A DNA stretch of 64,000 nt, taken from NCBI RefSeq assembly GCF_009909235.1, contig NZ_JAAAPO010000004.1:310001-374000 (forward strand), read 5' to 3'. The notes below the pieces were generated by a model that made no database searches, was not told the origin of the DNA, and worked only from the letters and a program-made list of their open reading frames with translations. Of this stretch, positions 22,630 to 63,644 are shown piece after piece (position 1 is the first letter of the stretch; each line of letters begins with the position of its first letter). Made by a program: the position numbers and the translations under genes. The stretch is from Novosphingobium ovatum. GTDB lineage: Bacteria; Pseudomonadota; Alphaproteobacteria; Sphingomonadales; Sphingomonadaceae.

Positions 22630-23835
22630 ATGAGCACCACCCTTGCCCATAAGGGGCTGCCTTCGGGTGTTGGCCGTTTCGACCTGCTGCGTCTGTTCGA
22701 GCAGGTAGCGAGGCCAGGCTTTGGCCTGTCGTCCACCGCCGTGGCGCTGGTACGGCATTATGTGCTCAAGACCATGGACGGCGACTATCTGTCTGGCCGC
22801 ATCTGCGCCATCTGGACGCAGGCTTGTCGCTTTGCAGAGGCCTTGGGCCTGACGCCGCGCTCGATCAATTCGGCCGAGCGAGAGTTGGAGAAGGCTGGCT
22901 TCATCATCCGCAACGCTGGCATCAATGGCGAACGCGCAGGTGACCGGCAGGACGGGGTCGTGGTCTGGGCCGCAGGCATCAATCTGGCTCCGCTGGTCGA
23001 GCGATTTGCCGAGATGCAGGCCAAGGCCGAGGCGCTGGAACTGCAAGCCCGCGCCATCCAGCAATGCCGCGCCGAGATCCGTCAACTGGGCCAACGAATC
23101 CGCGAGGCCGGTGACGAGGATCTGCGCGAACGGGCTGAAACCATCCTACCCGATGGACGCACGGCGCGGATCACCAACATCGACCGCCTGATCGCTATCC
23201 GCGAGGCCTTGTCCGCCATGCTCGCTGCCATCGAACACAATCCGGAATCCGGGCTAGAATCTTATCCCCGTGCACTGAAATCTTCCGACGCGCCGGAAGA
23301 AAACTGCGCACCCAATATACAGAACCAAAACTCATCACGAAGGCGTACCGCGCCAGCCCGCGATCCGCTCGAACGCATCCGGCCTGCAACCGCGCTGGTG
23401 GTGGCCACAGAGAGCTATCGCGGCATCGTCGAGGCGCTGGGTGGGCCGAGCTGGCCCAATCTTGTCGAGGCGTCGTGGCGCAGTTGTGGGAGGCTTGGCA
23501 TCGCCCAGAGCACATGGGGTCGAGCTTGCCAGCAGTTCGGTCGGGAACGAGCGGCGCTCAGCGTCTTGTTGATCGACCGGAATGCGGAATTGCCGTTGGG
23601 ACACCGCTATCGGGTGGGCTCACCAGCAAGGTGTCTGGCGGGCATGGTGCGTCGGGCAGGCTCGGCAGGGATGAACCTCGCAGGACTGTTCCGGGCCACC
23701 GAGCGCAACGCTCAGCAGGCGCCGTCACAATCCCCTGTGCCTGAGCCACCCATCGAGCCGCAAGCTGGCCCAATGGCTCATCTGACCGCGAGGCTGATGG
23801 CCAGCGTTGAGCGGCGCGTCACATCTGACGGGTGA
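22630..23835 (+). CDS. repC: Plasmid replication initiator, RepC family
   Basis: 401 residues. The N-terminal half (GLPSGVGRFDLLRLFEQVARPGFGLSSTAVALVRHYVLKTMDGDYLSGRICAIWTQ) is the conserved winged-helix DNA-binding part of RepC from repABC plasmids; GLTPRSINSAERELEKAGFI is its helix-turn-helix. A charged helical middle region and the C-terminal RepC domain (SWRSCGRLGIAQSTWGRACQQFGRERAAL) follow. RepC opens the origin and is often encoded next to it. Here it comes before parA, unlike the repA-repB-repC order. GGGG-AAGGG upstream of ATG 22630 is an acceptable ribosome site. It may be replicating or a relic of an integrated plasmid. Confidence 0.88.
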   Translation: MSTTLAHKGLPSGVGRFDLLRLFEQVARPGFGLSSTAVALVRHYVLKTMDGDYLSGRICAIWTQACRFAEALGLTPRSINSAERELEKAGFIIRNAGINGERAGDRQDGVVVWAAGINLAPLVERFAEMQAKAEALELQARAIQQCRAEIRQLGQRIREAGDEDLRERAETILPDGRTARITNIDRLIAIREALSAMLAAIEHNPESGLESYPRALKSSDAPEENCAPNIQNQNSSRRRTAPARDPLERIRPATALVVATESYRGIVEALGGPSWPNLVEASWRSCGRLGIAQSTWGRACQQFGRERAALSVLLIDRNAELPLGHRYRVGSPARCLAGMVRRAGSAGMNLAGLFRATERNAQQAPSQSPVPEPPIEPQAGPMAHLTARLMASVERRVTSDG

Positions 23836-24860: not shown

Positions 24861-25153
24861 TCGGCGCGCCGGACTCTCCGGGGCGGATCATTTCGTTCTT
24901 AAATTTGGTCGAGGTAGACGTTCGTTCAAACGCCTTCAAAAGCGACCTCAGAACGGCCAATCTGTCGACCGATCCTGAGCGGCCGCCTGCTTCAGGCATG
25001 CAAGTGGGGGGCAAAAAATGCCACAAGGTCATGATCGTTCAACGGCAGGGCGAATCGAATCGCGATTAATGGATTACATCACAGGAAATTTTGGCTAGAT
25101 TCTCCTCACAGCCGATTTCGTGCTGAAAAATTCTGGACCGAAACACAAAAGAA

Positions 25154-26224
25154 ATGGCCCGCGCCGATCATCTCGTCTCTCTTGTTCGCGCCAGCGTTGC
25201 TGGCGACCGTGAGACACTGCGCGCCGCCGCCGAGGCCATTGTCGCGGACGAACGGGCAAAGAAGCACCACATCGTCGCAGACCGCATCGAGCGCGCACTT
25301 GGCACCGTACCGGTCACGCCGCCACCACTAACCACGTCCCAGCCCCAGGTAGGACCTGGCCGGGACACGATCATCGAGATCGAACCGCGGGTCCGTTTTG
25401 ACGATCTGCTCCTTTCCTTGCCCGCGCGCGAGAATGGGCGGCAGCTCATCGAAGAACATGTGCGTGCCGAAGTCCTGCGCGCACATGCCTATGAGCCGCG
25501 CCATCGGATCCTGCTTTCCGGCCCACCTGGAAACGGAAAAACCTCCTTCGCCGAAGCAATCGCGGAGGCGCTTGGCCTCCCTTTCTTCGTTGTGCGTTAT
25601 GACGCCCTGATTGGCAGCTATCTCGGCGAGACCAATGCCAGGCTGCGCAAGCTGTTCGACTATGTGCGTACCCAGCCGAGCGTTCTGTTCTTCGACGAGT
25701 TCGATGCCATCGGCAAGGAGCGCGGGGACACCCACGAGACCGGCGAGATCAAGCGCGTGGTTTCGTTCCTGCTCATGCAACTCGATCAGTTGCCGCCATA
25801 TGTGATTGTTATTGCAGCGACGAACCACGCTGAGTTGCTGGACCGTGCGGTGTGGCGCCGTTTCCAGATGCGGCTGGCCTTCCCCGAACCCGATCGCAAA
25901 CTTCTCGAGGTGTTTCTGGACCGCATCATTTGCGGTTGGCCGGAGGCGCCACGCATGACGGTACAGAAGCTCGCAGCCCGCCTCGGCGCGGTCAGCTATG
26001 CCGAAGCGCTCGACCTGTGTCAGAATGTGAGGCGCAGGCAGATATTGGGTTTGGGGGAGATCAGTATCGATGATGCGCTCGCGAGAGAGCTTGAGCTTTG
26101 GAAGTCGCGCGTTCGGCCCGGGACTGTAGATGCCGAGCGATTTGACAAAGCCCCTGCTGAGGCTGACGCCAGACCAGCCAAGACCCCGCCCCGCCGGCCA
26201 GCAAAAATTCCCCCGGCCACCTGA
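25154..26224 (+). CDS. AAA+ ATPase paired with a subtilisin-like protease
   Basis: 356 residues. A helical N-terminal domain (about 1-60) precedes one AAA+ module: Walker A GPPGNGKT (123-130), Walker B VLFFDEFD (177-184), sensor-1 AATNHAELLD and an arginine pair AVWRRF after it. The C-terminal tail is proline- and basic-rich (ARPAKTPPRRPAKIPP). The fold resembles classic AAA proteins of the FtsH/katanin style but without a membrane anchor or fused protease. The next gene, an S8 protease, overlaps it by 95 bases, so the ATPase may unfold or deliver substrates or sense a trigger. The function of this pair is unknown to me. Confidence 0.85.
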   Translation: MARADHLVSLVRASVAGDRETLRAAAEAIVADERAKKHHIVADRIERALGTVPVTPPPLTTSQPQVGPGRDTIIEIEPRVRFDDLLLSLPARENGRQLIEEHVRAEVLRAHAYEPRHRILLSGPPGNGKTSFAEAIAEALGLPFFVVRYDALIGSYLGETNARLRKLFDYVRTQPSVLFFDEFDAIGKERGDTHETGEIKRVVSFLLMQLDQLPPYVIVIAATNHAELLDRAVWRRFQMRLAFPEPDRKLLEVFLDRIICGWPEAPRMTVQKLAARLGAVSYAEALDLCQNVRRRQILGLGEISIDDALARELELWKSRVRPGTVDAERFDKAPAEADARPAKTPPRRPAKIPPAT

Positions 26225-28643
26225 ATCTTTCCCTCGGGATCGTCAGCAAGCCACATTCGCGCCGAAATTCGACCGCCTGGGCCAGGCTTTGGCGCGAGAT
26301 CCCGGCGGCCTCGAACTGCGTGCCGATCCGGCTGCCCTGGCACCGGAGAGATTGCTCGTCTTCGAAGTCCGTGGCTCGGTGAACAATTTTGCCGCAGCCG
26401 TTCAGCGGGTGCCCGGCCTCGAACTGATCGACGAAGAGGAGTTGGGCAGCGACGACGACAAGGAACCCGTCGCCTATCTCCTTGTTCCGGACGCGCGCGC
26501 GCTCGCAGAATTGCTCTCTCTTTGGAGGCGCTGGAACGCCGATCAACTGCAATTCGGGGAGACGCCTTGGCGTGGCGTGTTCGAACTGCTTCGCGATCTG
26601 CGACCATGGGGGCCGCAGGACAGGGTCCAACGACTGGACGCCAGTTTTCTCGCCGAGGAGATCGAGGGGCGCAGCGAGGACGAGCTTGTGCCGCTGGAGA
26701 TCGAGTTGATCTACCGAGCCTCTGAGGTTCAGGCCCAAGCACGGGAAGATGAAGTGCGCGCGGCAGTGTCCGCACGCGGCGGGCAGATCATCTCGCGTGC
26801 CCGGCTGCCCGACATCGCCTATCATGCCCTGCTCGTGGATTTGCCGGTACGCGCGATCCGGGAGATCATCGGACGGGCGGAAGGCGGCATCGCCAATCTC
26901 GAGCCGGTCATGCACATCCGCCCGCAAAGCCTAGCGACGACGATCGAGATCGAGGACGTCACAGACGCCGGCGCCCCTGCTGCGGTCGGCGAGCTGCGCG
27001 AACCGATCCTAGCCCTGCTCGATGGGGTTCCGGTCGCCGCACATCCGCTGCTCGCTGCTCATCTGGTCGTGGATGATCAATTCGATCTCGAACCCAATGC
27101 GCCCGTGGACCAACGCGTCCATGGCACTGCGATGGCGTCGCTCCTCGTGCATGGCGACCGGAACAATCCCGCACCGGCATTGCCGCGACGCATTCACGTC
27201 GTTCCGGTGATGGGTGCAGGGGACTGCTTCCCGGCACGACGGCTTGTTGTCGACATCATCTTTCTCGCCATTAGAGCGATGCGGGAAGGCGCGGATGCAA
27301 CGGCGCCGGGCGTGCTGATCGTAAATCTTTCGCTTGGCAACGAGCGGCGTCCCTTTCAGTCATCGCTGTCGGCATGGGCACGGCTGCTGGATCGACTGGC
27401 GTACCGATACGGCATTCTGTTTCTGGTGAGTGCCGGTAATGTGAGGGAGACCTTCGGCGTCCCAGCCTTCGCGACCGGAACGGCCTTCGAAGACGCAGAC
27501 GCCGCCGCTCGCTGTGACGGCACACTGACCGCGATCGGTAATTTGATGGCTGACCGGCGTATATTTTCGCCGTCCGAGGCAATCAACGCAGTTACGGTCG
27601 GCGCGTCCAATGACGATTGGGTGTCGGCGGCGGACCGCCGCGCCGCGCGCACCCTCATCGACCCTTTTCCGGGCATTCGTGCCGCCAACCCTTCGAGCGC
27701 TCTCGGCCCTGGATTTGCCCGATCGGTCAAACCCGACATTTTGATGCCGGGAGGTCGCGAGCACCTCCGCCAGATTCGGACTGACGATCATGTCTTCGTC
27801 AGACCGGCTCCATCGACGCGCCCTGCTGGCCTCAAAGTGGCGGCGCCTCGTACCGGCGGTACCGGGATAGCCGAAGGCTATTCGGGCGGGACCAGCGGCG
27901 CAACCGCGCTGGCATCACGCACATGTCATCGGATCCATGACGCACTGGAGGCGGCGTATCCGGATTTTGCGGGCCTGCCCCACATTCAGCGGGCGGTCCT
28001 GCTCAAGGCGCTGCTTGTCCATCCCGCCCGTTGGCCCGATGACATTGCTGCACGGATCAAAGCGATCATCGGCCCGGTCGGCGGGCATCACAGCCACATC
28101 AAGGACAGTATCAGGCGCTTCCTGGGATTTGGCTATGTCGACGCCGACGACGCAGTAACGTGCGCGGAGGACCGCGCGACGTTCTGGGCGGTTGGAGAAC
28201 TTTCACGCGACCGTGTCGCCACTGTCCGTGTCCCCGTACCGGCGGTCATGAGCGGTCAGGCCCGGCCCCACAGCCTGTCGGCGACGCTGGCATGGTTCAC
28301 ACCCGTGCAACCGGGACGCAAGAGCTACCGATCAGTTCGCCTCAAACTGCTTGATCCAGCCGAAGCCGGAATGTTGAGCGTTTCTCCGCGTAGCCTTCAG
28401 CCTGACGGCAATCAGACCAATCGCGGCACCATATTTATGCGCTGCTGGGAAGGTGACCGAGCGCCGGTTGTCGGTCCTGAAATGACAATTGACCTCGTAG
28501 TTCAGCGCGATCCGGATCCCGGCACCCCGATAGATGAAGCCGTGCCATTCGGCCTTGCGGTTACGATCGCCATGCCCGGGATTGTGGGCCTCTACACACA
28601 GGTCGCGCAGCGCCTCGGCATCGCTCCGCGTCAGCCGGGCTAA
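26130..28643 (+). CDS. Large subtilisin-like (S8) serine protease with novel N-terminal region
   Basis: 837 residues. An N-terminal region of about 290 residues (starting ERLLVFEVRGSVNNFAAAVQRVPGLELIDEEE) precedes an S8 domain with an intact triad: Asp298 in LALLDGV, His331 in RVHGTAMA, Ser589 in GTSGATALA. Asn in FLVSAGN is the oxyanion-hole residue. The C-terminal 190 residues look beta-rich. There is no signal peptide, so it acts in the cytoplasm, which is unusual for subtilases. It overlaps the AAA+ gene by 95 bases. Pairs like this fit a protease-based conflict or defence system, but that is inference. Confidence 0.88.
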   Translation: MPSDLTKPLLRLTPDQPRPRPAGQQKFPRPPESFPRDRQQATFAPKFDRLGQALARDPGGLELRADPAALAPERLLVFEVRGSVNNFAAAVQRVPGLELIDEEELGSDDDKEPVAYLLVPDARALAELLSLWRRWNADQLQFGETPWRGVFELLRDLRPWGPQDRVQRLDASFLAEEIEGRSEDELVPLEIELIYRASEVQAQAREDEVRAAVSARGGQIISRARLPDIAYHALLVDLPVRAIREIIGRAEGGIANLEPVMHIRPQSLATTIEIEDVTDAGAPAAVGELREPILALLDGVPVAAHPLLAAHLVVDDQFDLEPNAPVDQRVHGTAMASLLVHGDRNNPAPALPRRIHVVPVMGAGDCFPARRLVVDIIFLAIRAMREGADATAPGVLIVNLSLGNERRPFQSSLSAWARLLDRLAYRYGILFLVSAGNVRETFGVPAFATGTAFEDADAAARCDGTLTAIGNLMADRRIFSPSEAINAVTVGASNDDWVSAADRRAARTLIDPFPGIRAANPSSALGPGFARSVKPDILMPGGREHLRQIRTDDHVFVRPAPSTRPAGLKVAAPRTGGTGIAEGYSGGTSGATALASRTCHRIHDALEAAYPDFAGLPHIQRAVLLKALLVHPARWPDDIAARIKAIIGPVGGHHSHIKDSIRRFLGFGYVDADDAVTCAEDRATFWAVGELSRDRVATVRVPVPAVMSGQARPHSLSATLAWFTPVQPGRKSYRSVRLKLLDPAEAGMLSVSPRSLQPDGNQTNRGTIFMRCWEGDRAPVVGPEMTIDLVVQRDPDPGTPIDEAVPFGLAVTIAMPGIVGLYTQVAQRLGIAPRQPG

Positions 28644-28876: not shown

Positions 28877-31800
28877 ATGCATCCCAACGCACTGGAGCCC
28901 GCAGCGTATGTAAGCCAGCTTGCGGAAGCTTCGCTCCGTTTAATTCCGCATCTGTCCGCCAGCGTAAAACTCACCCGGCGGATGGTCAATCAGGCCATGG
29001 AGGAGGCAACCGGCTCCACTTCGGCCTCTGGAACCTGGTCCCAGCGTGACAGCTGTCAGGTGCTGGAAATGGCTGTGCTTCGCTGGCTTGCCGTGCAATC
29101 GATGCCCTCATCGGCCGAGCAGGCACTTTCCTTTCTGCACAATCTCGAAGCCCGCCTACCAACCCAGACCGTCCGCAGTGAAGAACAAGTTGAGCGCCAG
29201 CATTTCTCAACGCCGTTGGGATTGGCTTGGTTGGCGGCTCACTTTGCCGACATCCGACCTGACGAAGTGGTGTTCGAACCCAGTGCGGGCACTGGAATGC
29301 TGGCTATCTGGGCGAGACATGCTGCCAGTCTCCATCTTAACGAGATCGATCCGGTCCGTCAGGGGATCCTGCGCCATTTGTTTCCCGATGCGACCGTGAC
29401 CGGCCATGATGCCGCCCGCATCGCGGCTCATCTGACCCAGCGGCCCAGTGTGATTCTCATGAACCCACCCTTCGCCCGCAACGCTGCTGGCCTTGAGGAT
29501 CCGACCACGGGCGCACGCCACCTGGCCGCGGCACTGCGCGTTTTGAAGCCCGATGGGCGCCTCGTCGCCATCATGCCCGACAGCTTCCAGCCCAGCGGTC
29601 GCCGCGCGGAACTGTTCCAGCGCGCGCTGCAAGGCGCAAGTGTGGCGTTCCATGCCCGGCTTGAGGGTGCCTTTGCCAGACAGGGCACCTCGATCGCGGT
29701 GCGCTTGCTGGTGATCGACAAGTGTGCCGGCTCCATCAACACCACCGTCATCAACCGGGATACGCTTGCCGATCTGGTGCCCTTCCTGTCCAAGGTTCCA
29801 CCGCGCCGTCGAGGCGCAACTGAATTGGCGCTCGTGGCCAAACCTCCAGTTTCGCCTGCCAAAACCACGTCCACCTTGCTGGGCGGATTCCGATCAGCCA
29901 CACCGAAACTGGCCACAGCAGCGTCGCGCGGCGATGCCACCGGCGCCATAACGCTGGCCTATACCCTTCGCGACACTATCGCCGATGCCGAACAGGCGGT
30001 GGGCGTCTATGTCGCCTATCGGCCCCAACGCCTGATCTTCGAGAACGCGGCCGACCACCCCACCCAATTGGTGGAATCTGCAGCCATGGCCTCAGTGGCG
30101 CTGCCAACACCAAGCTATGTCCCCCAGCTTCCTGCCAAAGTGATCCGTGACCGTGTTCTGAGCCGCGCCCAGCTTGAAACGCTGGTCCATGCGCTCGATG
30201 CGACCTCGTCCGATCTTCCCGGCCGCTATCGCGTGCCAGAACGCGGCCTCGAGCTGGTGCCGGATGCCGATGGTGCGATTTACCGGCGCGGCTTCTTCCT
30301 CGGCGATGGCACTGGTGCTGGCAAAGGCCGCCAACTCGCCTCGATCCTGATGGATCAATGGCTGCGCGGTCACCGCCGCCATCTCTGGATCAGCGAAAGC
30401 AATGCCCTGATCGAGGATGCCCGCCGCGACTGGCAGGCGCTGGGCGGCATTGCGCTCGACATCCAGCCCCTGTCGAAGATCAAGCCCGAGGCCAGGATCC
30501 GGCAGGCAGACGGCATCCTCTTCGCCTCCTATGCCACGCTGCGCAGCGGCACCGGCGAGAAGACCCGCCTCCAGCAATTGCTGGAATGGATGACGCCAGA
30601 TTTCGACGGTGTGATCCTGTTCGACGAGGCGCATGCGATGGGCGGTGTCGCCGGCGGTGAAGGCCGGTTCGGTGCTACCAAGGGCTCGCAGCAAGGCATC
30701 GTCGGCGTCGAATTGCAGAACCGCCTGCCGCGCGCTCGCGTGATCTACGCTTCGGCCACTGGGGCCTCGGACGTGAACAATCTGGCCTATGCTGTCCGGC
30801 TAGGGCTGTGGGGCGAAGGCACAGCCTTCCCGGATCGCAGCTCGTTCATCGCCCGCATCCATGAGGGCGGCATTGCCGCAATGGAACTGGTCGCTCGCGA
30901 ATTGAAGGCGATGGGCGTCTATACGGCTCGCGCGTTGTCCTACGCTGGCGTCGAATACGACATCCTCGAACACGCACTGACCCCGCGCCAGATCGCGGAT
31001 TTCGACGCCTATGCCGATGCCTGGGCGATCATCCACCGCAACCTTGAGGCCGCGCTGGGCGCTTCGGGGGTCACTGATCCGCTCGAGGGCAAGACCCTCA
31101 ACGGTCAGGCGCTGTCGGCGGCGCGCTCGCGCTTCGAGAGCTCGAAACAGCGCTTCTTTGGCCAGCTCCTGCTGTCGATGAAGCTGCCTTCGCTGCTTCC
31201 CGCTATCGAGGAGGCGCTGGCCACGGAGCACAGCGTCGTCATCCAACTGGTCTCGACCGCCGAGGCCTTGCTCGACCGGCGTCTCGCCGACCTCTCTGCC
31301 GAGGACCGTGCCGAGATCCAGCTCGACCTTTCGCCCCGCGAGATCGTGGCGGACTATCTCGACAATGCGTTCCCGACCCGCGCCATGGAAAGCTACTGGG
31401 ACGAGGACGGCAATGAGCGTTCACGCCCGATGGTCGATGAGGCGGGCAATCCGGTGCATTCGCAGGAGGCCTTGAGGATCAAGGCAGAAACGCTGGAACT
31501 GCTGGGCGCACTGCCACCGATCGTCCCCGCGCTCGACGCCATCATCTCCCGCTTCGGCACCGATGCCGTGGCTGAGATCACCGGTCGGACGCGCCGATTG
31601 GTGACCTTGCCCGACGGCAGCCAGCGGCTTGAATCGCGCACCGCCAACCAGTCGCTGGCCGATGCCAATGCTTTCATGGGCGGTGCCAAGCGCATCCTCG
31701 TGTTCTCGGATGCCGGCGGCACGGGGCGCTCCTACCACGCCAGTCTCGATGTGAAGAACCAGCAGCGCCGAATGCACTTCCTGCTTGAGCCGGGGTGGCG

Positions 31801-33094
31801 CGCGGACCGCGCCATCCAGGGGCTTGGCAGGACCAACCGCACCCATCAGGCCTCGGCGCCGGTCTTTCGTCCGGTCACCACCGATTGCCGCGGCGAACGG
31901 CGTTTCATCTCGACGATCGCCCGCCGCCTCGATGCGCTTGGCGCGCTGACACGCGGCCAGCGGCAGACGGGTGGGCAGAACCTGTTCGATCCTGCTGACA
32001 ATCTCGAGAGCGATTATGCCCGCGAGGCGCTAACGCGCTGGTATCATCTGCTGCATCAGGGCAAGCTGAGCAGCATTGGCTTTGCCGATTTCTGTGAGCG
32101 CACTGGATTGCAGCTTGAGCAGGAGGGCTGCCTCACCGACAATCTCCCGCCGATCCAGCGTTGGCTCAACCGCATTCTGGCGCTGCCGATAGCACTCCAG
32201 AACGCTGTCTTCGACGAATTTCTGGGGCTGGTTGAGGCGCGGATCGATGCGGCTCGCAAGGCAGGCACTTTCGATGCCGGCGTCGAGACCTTGGTGGCCG
32301 ACAAGCTGACCATCATCGAGGAGCGGATCCTGCGTGAGGAGGCCAATGGCGCCTCGACCCAGCTTCTGACCCTGGAAGCGCAGTGGGCGCCCAAATTCAC
32401 ACCGCTTGCCGAGATCGTGAAGCGCATTGGCCTCAAGACCCGGCTGCTGCGCAATGGCCGCTCCTCGCGCGTGGCTCTGCTGATGCCCGATCGCACGCGC
32501 CTGATGGACGATGGTACGCCGGTTGCCAGTTTCACGCTGCACCGGCCTGGTGGGCGAAACTGGCTCACCGCCGACGAACTCGCCGAGAGCCACTGGGATG
32601 ATTGCGAGCGTGAGGTCTTCGAGCAGGCCTGGCAGACTGAGGCCGATGATCTGGCGGCCAAACCCTATACCGAGCGCTTCTACCTCGCGACCGGCCGCCT
32701 GCTGCCGATCTGGAACCTGCTGGGCGATGAGGCGCAAGTCCGCCGCCTCGTCACCCAGGATGGCCGGTCTTTGCTGGGACGCATTGTGCCCGCCGAGGGG
32801 GTCAACATGCTCCTCGACAAGCTGGGCATCGGCGATCGCATCGCGCTATCGCCTGAGCAACTGGTCGATGCGGCGCTAGGCGGCAAGGTCGTGCCCATCG
32901 ATGCCTTGTCTGGCGCCAGCCTCAAGCGCTCCCGGGTCAACGGTGAGCAGCGGCTTGAGGTCATCGGCTTTGATCCCCGCGCTTTGCCTTCGTGGAAGGC
33001 CAAGGGATGCTTCACCGAGATCATTGCCTATCAGACCCGCCTGTTTATGCCGGTGAACAGCGCCTGCGACATCGTGGCGGCACTGGCGGCTTAG
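28877..33094 (+). CDS. Strawberry-notch-like helicase fused to a DNA methylase domain
   Basis: 1405 residues. The N-terminal methyltransferase has SAM-binding VVFEPSAGTGMLAIWARH (motif I) and the catalytic NPPF (about residue 196). A strawberry-notch helicase follows, with Walker A-like GDGTGAGKGRQ (about 477), DEAH (about 581), and a C-terminal helicase half ending in QGLGRTNRTHQ. Proteins of this layout occur on large plasmids and ICEs; their substrate and role (DNA modification plus remodelling, perhaps in transfer or defence evasion) are unclear. ATG 28877 has AAAGGA 6 bases upstream. It stands alone between the protease gene (233-bp gap with no gene) and mqsA. Confidence 0.88.
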   Translation: MHPNALEPAAYVSQLAEASLRLIPHLSASVKLTRRMVNQAMEEATGSTSASGTWSQRDSCQVLEMAVLRWLAVQSMPSSAEQALSFLHNLEARLPTQTVRSEEQVERQHFSTPLGLAWLAAHFADIRPDEVVFEPSAGTGMLAIWARHAASLHLNEIDPVRQGILRHLFPDATVTGHDAARIAAHLTQRPSVILMNPPFARNAAGLEDPTTGARHLAAALRVLKPDGRLVAIMPDSFQPSGRRAELFQRALQGASVAFHARLEGAFARQGTSIAVRLLVIDKCAGSINTTVINRDTLADLVPFLSKVPPRRRGATELALVAKPPVSPAKTTSTLLGGFRSATPKLATAASRGDATGAITLAYTLRDTIADAEQAVGVYVAYRPQRLIFENAADHPTQLVESAAMASVALPTPSYVPQLPAKVIRDRVLSRAQLETLVHALDATSSDLPGRYRVPERGLELVPDADGAIYRRGFFLGDGTGAGKGRQLASILMDQWLRGHRRHLWISESNALIEDARRDWQALGGIALDIQPLSKIKPEARIRQADGILFASYATLRSGTGEKTRLQQLLEWMTPDFDGVILFDEAHAMGGVAGGEGRFGATKGSQQGIVGVELQNRLPRARVIYASATGASDVNNLAYAVRLGLWGEGTAFPDRSSFIARIHEGGIAAMELVARELKAMGVYTARALSYAGVEYDILEHALTPRQIADFDAYADAWAIIHRNLEAALGASGVTDPLEGKTLNGQALSAARSRFESSKQRFFGQLLLSMKLPSLLPAIEEALATEHSVVIQLVSTAEALLDRRLADLSAEDRAEIQLDLSPREIVADYLDNAFPTRAMESYWDEDGNERSRPMVDEAGNPVHSQEALRIKAETLELLGALPPIVPALDAIISRFGTDAVAEITGRTRRLVTLPDGSQRLESRTANQSLADANAFMGGAKRILVFSDAGGTGRSYHASLDVKNQQRRMHFLLEPGWRADRAIQGLGRTNRTHQASAPVFRPVTTDCRGERRFISTIARRLDALGALTRGQRQTGGQNLFDPADNLESDYAREALTRWYHLLHQGKLSSIGFADFCERTGLQLEQEGCLTDNLPPIQRWLNRILALPIALQNAVFDEFLGLVEARIDAARKAGTFDAGVETLVADKLTIIEERILREEANGASTQLLTLEAQWAPKFTPLAEIVKRIGLKTRLLRNGRSSRVALLMPDRTRLMDDGTPVASFTLHRPGGRNWLTADELAESHWDDCEREVFEQAWQTEADDLAAKPYTERFYLATGRLLPIWNLLGDEAQVRRLVTQDGRSLLGRIVPAEGVNMLLDKLGIGDRIALSPEQLVDAALGGKVVPIDALSGASLKRSRVNGEQRLEVIGFDPRALPSWKAKGCFTEIIAYQTRLFMPVNSACDIVAALAA

Positions 33095-33115: not shown

Positions 33116-33607
33116 TCAAGCTGCGGCGTTGCGCACGCCGCGCTTGATGCGCTTGCCAACAGGTAATGCCGAGCCTTCGTGCCGCGTATCCTGCGCCATG
33201 GCTTTCGGGGCCGTCATGCGGAATGATCGCAGAGTTGCGACCTCCTCAGGATGACGGGCCAGAATTTCGATCAGGCCTACCGCCGCGTCGCTCGGCGGCG
33301 TGCGCCCGCTTTCATATTTCTGGAAAGCCCGCTTGCCGCCACCGATGATGATGCCTGCCTCTTCCTGGGTCAGGCCCAGCTTCTTGCGCACAGTCTTGAT
33401 GCGGGCGGCATAGGCCTCGCGCAGTTCCTTGAATGCCTCGTTATAGGCGCGCAGATCCTCGCCACTATGAATGGCATCGCCATCGCCTTCGGGATACCAG
33501 CCCGGCACCTCGACGACGCGCGAGAGCGAGCCGACGCACACCGTCTGCGGGCGCGTGTCGCGGCGCAGTTCCTGCCCCGTCTCGGGGTGAATTCGCGTCT
33601 CGCTCAT
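33116..33607 (-). CDS. mqsA: MqsA-like antitoxin / HTH regulator
   Basis: 163 residues. An N-terminal toxin-binding part (MSETRIHPETGQELRRD ... VVEVPGWYPEG ... DLRAYNEAFKEL) precedes an HTH-XRE domain (VRKKLGLTQEEAGIIIGGGKRAFQKYESGRTPPSDAAV, about 75-110) and a basic tail. The zinc-binding cysteines of E. coli MqsA are absent, as in the shorter related family. It neutralises MqsR and represses the pair by binding ACCT-N3-AGGT. It begins one base after the toxin stop. A decayed copy is at 21568-21965. Confidence 0.87.
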   Translation of the reverse strand: MSETRIHPETGQELRRDTRPQTVCVGSLSRVVEVPGWYPEGDGDAIHSGEDLRAYNEAFKELREAYAARIKTVRKKLGLTQEEAGIIIGGGKRAFQKYESGRTPPSDAAVGLIEILARHPEEVATLRSFRMTAPKAMAQDTRHEGSALPVGKRIKRGVRNAAA

Positions 33608-33608
33608 T

Positions 33609-33929
33609 TCAAACCTCCTTGAAGGATGTCAGCACGACATCGATCAGCGTCTCGCCGGCAAACTTCAGATACAACCACAAGCCATCGCAGGGGATGTTGT
33701 AGGTGTCGTGCCATAGCCGATGGTTCGGCGGATTATGTGCCGTCTCGGACTTGATGAAATCGCCCGGTTCCAGCGCCTGCACGACATCGACAATATCCTC
33801 GAGCGAATAGCCGATCTTCTGGGCATCGCGGGCCGCCTTGCTCGTGATCTCAAGCGTGTCCACATCGGCAAACTTGGCCTGGATCGCTTTGAGGTCATGG
33901 TGCGGGGTCCGCTTTACCGGCATGTTCAA
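33609..33929 (-). CDS. mqsR: MqsR-like mRNA interferase toxin
   Basis: 106 residues. HHDLKAIQAKF, AARDAQKIGYSLEDIVDVVQAL, and FIKSETAHNPPNHRLWHDTYNIPCDG followed by WLYLKFA form the MqsR fold (RelE-like ribonuclease). In E. coli MqsR cuts mRNA mainly at GCU and other sites. Toxin precedes antitoxin, the reversed order characteristic of mqsRA. The operator at 33933-33943 lies 4 bases before the start codon. Confidence 0.88.
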   Translation of the reverse strand: MNMPVKRTPHHDLKAIQAKFADVDTLEITSKAARDAQKIGYSLEDIVDVVQALEPGDFIKSETAHNPPNHRLWHDTYNIPCDGLWLYLKFAGETLIDVVLTSFKEV

Positions 33930-61604: not shown

Positions 61605-62217
61605 TCAAGCCATTTGAAAATCCTTCTCTGCACGCAGCATCGCCCACGCCATGCGGACAGTCTTGTTGGCCATGGCGACGGCTGTCTTGTTGTGACCAGC
61701 GCGCGCGAGCAGTTCTTGCGCCCATTTGGCGAGCCGATCATTGCGCTTGGCAATTGTGAGTAGCACAGCTCGTGCTCCATGGATCAACTGTCGCCGACGA
61801 TAATGACTGGCCTTTTTGCCAATTCCACCGAGCCTGGGCTTGCCTCCGGTGGTGTATTGGCGGGGAACCAGACCGACCCAAGCCGCCATCGCCCGACCTG
61901 AAGAAAAATGCCGACCATCATCGACGGCTGCAACGAGCGCGGTCGCTATCACAGGGCCAACGCCCGGGAGTGTCGCCAGGCGGCGGCACCGCTCGTTGTC
62001 GCGGCAAATGGCGACGAGCTTTCGGTCAAGATCGACCACTCGCTCATCAAGCGCCCGGAATTCGCTTATCAGGGCTGAGAAAAGATCGGAGGCGAGTTCG
62101 GACAATGGCGCACTGGCTACCGTTTCGGTAATTTGCTTTCGGAATCTGAAGGCACCTGCTGAGAGCACGACGCCGTACTCACCAAGCAGGCCTCGAATAT
62201 GATTGATTAGTGCCGTA
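61605..62217 (-). pseudogene. IS110-family transposase, C-terminal part (split by IS256)
   Basis: The C-terminal Transposase_20 domain: LATLPGVGPVIATALVAAVDDGRHFSSGRAMAAWVGLVPRQY, then GGIGKKASHYRRRQLIHGARAVL. Its reading frame is continuous with the N-terminal half at 63645 once the IS256 element and one copy of GTGCCGTA are removed: ERTA + LINHIRGLLGEYGVVL. So the gene was intact before the insertion. IS110 elements lack terminal inverted repeats. Confidence 0.9.
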
Positions 62218-63644
62218 GGTCGCGTCCCGGGACGTGGTGTAGGATCTGAGGGTAGCGCTGCTGGCCGGACGCGCGCTTTCCATATAGCGCTGTAGCGTAC
62301 GGCCAGCAGCGCGGGTGGTCACCGTGATTTTCGGCTAGGTTTGGGTTGCGAAGCTCGAACCTGGAGAACCACGATGACCGATTCCATGATGCACCTGCGC
62401 GCGCTGGTCGAGAAGGCCCCTGACGCGGATATTTTGCGCGAGATGATCTCGTTTGCCGCCGGGCGGTTGATGGAGATGGAAGTCGGTGGCCTGACGGGTG
62501 CGGGCCACGGCGAGAAGTCCGCCGATCGGCTTGTCCAGCGCAACGGCTATCGCGACCGCGACTGGCAAACCCGCGCGGGAACGGTGGAACTGCGCATTCC
62601 CAAGTTGCGCAAGGGCAGCTATTTTCCCGGTTTTCTGGAGCCGCGTCGGATGGCCGAGCGGGCGCTGACGGCGGTCATCCAGGAAGCCTATGTGCATGGC
62701 ATCTCGACGCGATCGGTCGATGACCTGGTCAAGGCGCTGGGCATGGATGGCATCTCCAAAAGCCAGGTTAGCCGCCTGTGCGAAGAGCTCGACCAAAAGG
62801 TGCATGCCTTCCTCGATCGCCCGATCGAGGGCGACTGGCCTTACCTGTGGATCGACGCCACCTATGTCAAAGTCCGCCAGAATGGCCGTATCGTCTCGGT
62901 CGCGGTGATCATCGCGGTGGGCGTCAACAGCGACGGTCGCCGTGAAGTGCTGGGCATGGATATCGGCCCGTCGGAAGCCGAACCCTTCTGGACCGCGTTT
63001 CTGCGCAAGCTGACGCGCCGGGGCCTGCGTGGGGTGAAGCTGGTGATCTCCGACGCTCATGAAGGCATCAAGGCGGCGGTCTCCAAGCTGCTGTGCGCGA
63101 GCTGGCAGCGCTGCCGCGTCCACTTCATGCGCAACGCGTTGGCCCACGCTGGCAAGAGCGGGCGCCGCGTCGTCTCGGCATTCATCGGCACCGCTTTTGC
63201 TCAGGAGACGCCCGAGGCCGCCAGTCAGCAATGGCGTTCCGTTGCCGATCAAATGCGCCCAAAACTGCCAAAACTCGCCGCGTTGATGGACGACGCCGAA
63301 CCCGACGTGCTCGCCTACATGACGTTCCCCAAGGAGCACCGGGCCAAGTTGCACAGTACGAATCCCATCGAGCGCCTGAACGGCGAGATCAAACGCCGCA
63401 CCGAAGTCGTCGGCATCTTCCCCAACGAAGCGGCAATCACACGCCTGATCGGCGCCATTCTCATGGAACAGTCCGATGAATGGGCCGTCCAGCGCGGCCG
63501 CTACATGTCACTTGAAACCATGGCGCCGGTGAGCGACAATCCCATCGTCATGCTCTCGGCTGTACCTGGCGCATGACCGGCTCAAGCTTATGCCGAAATC
63601 GCCGGTGGCCCAAATAAACTACACCACGCCGTGGGACACGATCG
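62218..63644 (+). mobile_element. IS256-family insertion sequence inside IS110
   Basis: 1427 bases. Outer ends GGTCGCGTCCC... (62218-62242) and the inverse complement of 63620-63644 match at 20 of 25 positions, finishing CGTGGTGTAG. Both sides carry the 8-bp direct repeat GTGCCGTA (62210-62217 and 63645-63652), the expected target duplication. One transposase gene inside. Confidence 0.9.
62374..63576 (+). CDS. IS256-family transposase
   Basis: 400 residues. DDE catalytic residues: LWIDATYVK (first Asp), [10 protein letters not shown] (second Asp) and [23 protein letters not shown] (Glu region). N-terminal [19 protein letters not shown] and [11 protein letters not shown] are hallmark. ATG 62374 has GGAG upstream. 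It looks complete. Confidence 0.94.

Follow-up and report, generated by a model that had tools for sequence, protein, structure and literature searches.

In Salmonella genomic island 1 (SGI1), expressing the S8 protease of the sgiAT module without its ATPase reduces transformation by a factor of 100 to 1000 and leads to cell death within 30 min (PMC5006074). The module stabilises SGI1, and under its own promoter it gave no post-segregational killing (PMC5006074). TA132/3 of Mycoplasma was shown to be a functional toxin-antitoxin system (PMC8562856). The ietAS pair of Agrobacterium pTiC58 is referred to as a toxin-antitoxin module by later papers (cited in PMC5006074 and PMC8562856), and according to the title of Yamamoto 2009 (cited in PMC5006074) it affects incompatibility. 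ietAS was also catalogued as anti-phage (PMC9958689, PMC10732053; also in PADLOC), and phage replication components were reported as its activators (PMC10732053, PMC10286901). The IetAS family has been reported with two faces, element addiction and phage defence, and its mechanism was termed undescribed (PMC9958689, PMC11878078).

The window analyzed here is a stretch of 64,000 nucleotides from Novosphingobium ovatum. A preliminary description had proposed that two of its genes, overlapping by 95 bases, form a candidate conflict system. Both open reading frames were found on the same strand (25154-26224 and 26130-28643) with exactly this overlap. The pair indeed belongs to a conflict system, which is not a new one, since it matches the described IetAS in PADLOC. 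The conflict-module call made from the letters alone was thus genuine, and the module itself was largely known already. The features of the locus are as follows.

25059-25153, plus strand: leader of ietA, ~95 bp, conserved by DNA similarity; probable promoter/operator.
25154-26224, plus strand: ietA, AAA+ ATPase of 356 aa, probable antitoxin/gatekeeper (PADLOC, Pfam, motifs).
26130-26224, plus strand: overlap of ietA and ietS, 95 bp, which codes for the IetS N-terminal motif KPLLRL.
26130-28643, plus strand: ietS, cytoplasmic S8 subtilisin-like protease of 837 aa, probable toxin/effector (PADLOC, Pfam, triad).
26682-26924, plus strand: part of ietS, predicted I9/subtilisin-propeptide-like domain, residues ~185-265 (AlphaFold2 models, VIA-align).
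26997-28169, plus strand: part of ietS, S8 catalytic domain, residues ~290-680 (Pfam Peptidase_S8 at 293-633, model, structural matches).

It is nearly certain that the pair is a member of the IetAS family. The PADLOC IetA model (PDLC04232, 330 positions) matched residues 1-323 of IetA with E=8.9e-140, and the IetS model (PDLC04233) matched residues 3-834 of IetS with E=1.1e-277. The ATPase gene comes first and is adjacent to the protease gene on the same strand, which is the PADLOC IetAS arrangement and the order seen identically in relatives, and the pair carries the intact Walker motifs and the Asp-His-Ser triad expected of a PADLOC IetAS. The top homologous NCBIfam models were IteA (NF042959, 3.9e-63) and IteS (NF042956, 3.9e-21), and the equivalog cut-offs of these models were not reached (213.8 vs 510 bits for IteA and 75 vs 900 bits for IteS). 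Because of these scores, and because the Agrobacterium plasmid IetA relatives sampled share only ~35% identity with the window IetA over residues 1-262, sequence comparison places the pair in a divergent IetAS subfamily, which is already modelled in PADLOC, as only a wider-family relative of IteA/IteS.

The AAA+ module of IetA had been described as intact, and Walker A (GPPGNGKT, residues 123-130), Walker B (LFFDE, 178-182), sensor-1 (N224) and the arginines R235/R236 were all present. Pfam AAA matched IetA with 1e-32, and the Walker residues were kept in relatives down to ~34% identity. The full S8 triad of IetS was likewise found exactly where it had been located, at D298, H331 and S589, and the oxyanion residue was N437. 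The triad and the oxyanion Asn were invariant across relatives, with the triad residues retained down to ~20% identity, and Pfam Peptidase_S8 matched residues 293-633 with 1.8e-16. The claim that IetS lacks a secretion signal agreed with a Kyte-Doolittle scan, in which there was no hydrophobic N-terminal stretch (best 15-residue mean touching residues 1-60, 0.15); this hydrophobicity scan is a crude test.

The AlphaFold2 model of IetS, built from 28 sequences, had a mean pLDDT of 89.3 and a pTM of 0.92, and contained the S8 domain (~290-680) followed by a beta-rich domain (682-814). The whole model aligned with unprocessed pro-Tk-subtilisin over residues 183-686 (Z 24.4, 339 residues, 4.2 Å) and with KP-43 (Z 26.3, 384 residues, 3.2 Å), and its top Foldseek match was Tk-SP containing the propeptide (2.2e-21). 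The isolated fragment 60-283 was also modelled with AlphaFold2 (pLDDT 80.7) and compared with known structures by VIA-align. It matched Tk-SP with Z 9.6 (89 residues, 2.7 Å), the I9-type inhibitor POIA1 with Z 7.4 and pro-Tk-subtilisin with Z 7.1, the latter two being about level with the scores of unrelated ferredoxin-like folds. All three alignments lay on IetS residues ~167-272. The Foldseek propeptide match of the fragment was weak (1.6e-3), the Pfam I9 model gave no match in a profile search of IetS, and a PDB sequence search with IetS returned no matches. The fragment matches, together with the location of residues ~185-265 ahead of the S8 domain in the complete model, make a predicted propeptide/inhibitor domain the best reading of this part. 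In the predicted models, this domain precedes the S8 domain as expected of a zymogen subtilisin. The preliminary description had left the 290 N-terminal residues unassigned and suggested that they might be a sensor or an inhibitor. The first statement still holds for residues ~60-180, which were barely covered by the structural search and to which no known fold was assigned, and it is otherwise outdated, since the PADLOC IetS model extends over residues 3-834 and part of the region has the predicted propeptide-like fold. The inhibitor option gained support from this fold, obtained by the structure prediction that had been proposed.

The extreme N-terminus of IetS reads KPLLRL in close relatives, and short LLxL/HLxLxR-like motifs occur there in remoter ones. 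When the overlap was compared with that of the relative L009, 11 of the 16 mismatches were at third positions of the IetS frame, a count that covers few sites, and the comparisons with relatives are not independent. As the mismatches fall mostly on IetS third positions, it looks as if the IetS N-terminus rather than the IetA tail is conserved, and the start of IetS looks real. In several public annotations, the ietS start was placed 126-225 bp too late (L003 20001-20223, L005 5889-6114, L125 8001-8157, L127 8001-8208 and L129 8001-8127), so that the conserved N-terminal motif is absent from the deposited proteins.

IetS followed an IetA-like gene in 61 of 71 distinct loci having at least 1.5 kb of downstream DNA. 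The other 10 loci were read, and the idea that IetA on its own forms a distinct system was rejected: two keep a broken IetS start (L059, L067), and several encode unrelated AAA proteins of phages. DNA matches to Sphingopyxis and Sphingobium plasmids (90.7 and 86% identity, respectively) were limited to 25059-28641, with the left edge at 25059-25063, and outside this segment the neighbourhoods differed wholly. Because the match is confined in this way and the surroundings are different, the mobile unit is ietA, ietS and the ~95-bp leader, a 3.58-kb cassette that moves between unrelated plasmid neighbourhoods. The leader has a block common to relatives, GATTA..TTGATTACA..GGAAA.TTT..TAGATTC, and a search of it for a sigma-70 consensus promoter found none. 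A small gene lies directly after ietS in some relatives, either of a sphingomonad type (L002 17868-18461, L006 12544-13134, L008 12533-13123) or of a rhizobial type (L123 10551-11090, L125 10548-11090). A third core gene was rejected, since BLAST showed no relation between the two types and the window has neither, and these genes were taken as lineage cargo.

The mismatches per codon position 1/2/3 against L009 were 0.095/0.018/0.486 in ietA and 0.105/0.071/0.557 in ietS, and the pattern against five further relatives agreed with this result. This clear pattern points to purifying selection on both genes. With third-position mismatches in both and recurrence in many genomes, the pair of open reading frames is not a product of chance. 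Compared with window 25154-28643, L002 (14349-17838) had a third-position mismatch of 0.41 in ietA and 0.12 in ietS, while L011 (9025-12514) had 0.24 and 0.32, respectively. These opposite contrasts suggest recombination between ietA and ietS, and the cassette looks mosaic.

IetS relatives were found in 99 records of the plasmid collection, mainly from Bradyrhizobium and Rhizobium. There was no IetS relative among the phage GenBank records at E 1e-5, and some were present in IMG/VR contigs, which are possibly plasmid or island DNA. IetS matches occurred in three of the 61 genomes searched, which comprised relatives and more distant ones; one is the own genome, and the other two are distant. 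The 120 genomes of the genus yielded a close IetA relative (96%) and another at 61% that carries an in-frame stop. The pair is rare within the genus.

The pair had also been placed in a mobile island with antirestriction, toxin-antitoxin and methylase/helicase genes, and ArdC, MqsA/MqsR and a Strawberry-notch helicase were confirmed there. RepC-like (22630-23835), ParA and RHH genes lie upstream of the pair, and the Strawberry-notch helicase, MqsA/MqsR, a ParB-family gene and ArdC lie downstream. The helicase (28877-33094) has a methyltransferase-like N-terminal part and recurs on sphingomonad plasmids, and the MqsA/MqsR toxin-antitoxin pair (33116-33929, minus strand) is 4.5 kb from ietS. The right-hand end of the window (61605-63576) carries IS110-type and Mutator-type transposase genes. 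The pair sits in the plasmid-like backbone of an integrated element. A plasmid location was rejected, since several tRNA genes make contig C4, which carries the window, look chromosomal; a self-transmissible ICE was rejected as well, since no TrbE/VirB4 was found on this contig, the genome's sole match being on contig C1. A further RepC-like gene was found on contig C4 (~294326-294787), 38 kb upstream of the copy in the window, with a tRNA gene nearby at 292912. This second RepC-like gene near a tRNA may mark tandem integrated elements. When the ten neighbouring genes were compared with PADLOC, no other complete system was found. At 13 annotated plasmid ietAS loci, other toxin-antitoxin genes were nearby in 7, replication or transfer genes near 5 and defence-like genes near a few, a tally that is descriptive only. 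Immediately ahead of ietAS, a Neorhizobium plasmid carries a multiubiquitin/ThiF gene set (L004 8439-10708).

We consider it likely that the pair is an IetAS module, kin to pTiC58 ietAS and SGI1 sgiAT, in which IetA restrains or gates a zymogen-like IetS that is freed upon loss or disturbance of IetA. IetA would be the antitoxin or gatekeeper, and IetS a cytoplasmic subtilisin made zymogen-like by the ~185-265 domain with its predicted subtilisin-propeptide fold. As long as IetA is present, IetS would be held inactive; when IetA is lost together with the element, or disturbed by, for example, phage replication proteins, IetS would be freed, cleave cellular proteins and stop growth. The outcome would be element stabilisation and/or abortive phage defence. 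The window copy is presumably active and its IetS released by such a trigger, and the direct target of IetA may be the propeptide domain or the N-terminal motif. Toxicity of the window IetS and its neutralisation by IetA would be expected by analogy with the SGI1 and Mycoplasma pairs, and the behaviour may differ given the low identity to Agrobacterium plasmid IetA and the sub-cut-off IteA/IteS scores. The failure of sgiAT to cause post-segregational killing under its own promoter (PMC5006074) and the weak Foldseek match of the IetS fragment also count against this reading. More tentatively, the propeptide-like domain might block the active site and KPLLRL might be the handle for IetA, with the switch lying in the loosening of this hold and not in the breakdown of a labile antitoxin. 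P265-Q266 of IetS, after the last strand of the propeptide-like domain, are conserved.

PADLOC and NCBIfam catalogue the family as anti-phage, phage replication components have been named as ietAS activators (PMC10732053, PMC10286901), and restriction, ubiquitin-like or AbiE genes occur in the vicinity of some relatives. The pair could accordingly be mainly a dedicated anti-phage system, in which a phage protein is sensed by IetA or by the complex and IetS is then let loose on phage or host targets, element maintenance being incidental. However, the closest genes in the window belong to replication/partition and the plasmid backbone, the ten neighbours hold no other PADLOC system, and the best-studied relatives serve element stability (PMC5006074), so we regard this possibility as rather unlikely. 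Element maintenance fits the position at least as well as an anti-phage role, because RepC, ParA and RHH genes adjoin the pair and the ten neighbours have no second system. The two roles are compatible, and one does not exclude the other.

We find it very doubtful that the pair is a regulated protease of the element, with IetA feeding specific proteins, such as replication/partition proteins of its own or of rivals, to a non-toxic IetS. An AAA+ protein plus a protease does resemble the ATP-dependent proteases, the pair is beside RepC/ParA, and the title of Yamamoto 2009 (cited in PMC5006074) speaks of an effect of pTiC58 ietAS on incompatibility. Yet the protease of relatives is toxic alone and the ATPase relieves this toxicity, the opposite of an ATPase-driven protease, and IetS combines a full subtilisin domain and a propeptide-like domain of its own and has no self-compartmentalised chamber. 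Broken IetS at other loci (L059, L067) and the in-frame stop in the IetA relative of one same-genus genome would suit a decayed, inactive copy, but in the window both frames are open, the family-invariant catalytic residues are kept and mismatches are concentrated at third positions, and decay is hardly credible here.

The new content with respect to IetAS is modest: a divergent member, the boundaries of the cassette, a motif encoded in the overlap and a predicted propeptide-like domain. The predicted domain and the conserved N-terminal motif are concrete targets for the question of how an AAA+ protein restrains a cytoplasmic subtilisin. If true, the propeptide block and the KPLLRL grip would give the IetAS family a mechanism.

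Compared with the known systems, the sgiAT module (S026-S025) has the same gene order and lies in an integrated mobile island like the window pair (PMC5006074), but sgiA and sgiT are 20 bp apart, whereas the window genes overlap by 95 bp. Mycoplasma TA132/3 consists of an AAA-ATPase antitoxin of 353 aa and a subtilisin-like toxin of 757 aa, similar in size to the window pair, and is chromosomal in mycoplasmas, with no plasmid role proposed (PMC8562856). As it is presented in the papers that cite it, pTiC58 ietAS also has, on a mobile replicon, an AAA+ ATPase gene for the antitoxin and, after it, a subtilisin-like protease gene for the toxin, and the window pair differs from it in the 95-bp gene overlap and the integrated element. 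In pro-Tk-subtilisin and Tk-SP (PDB 3wiv, 2e1p and 3afg), a propeptide-like domain is followed by the S8 domain as in IetS, and a C-terminal beta-rich domain is shared with Tk-SP and KP-43. Unlike pro-Tk-subtilisin and Tk-SP, IetS has no signal peptide, carries the extra N-terminal part 1-180 and is accompanied by an ATPase partner.
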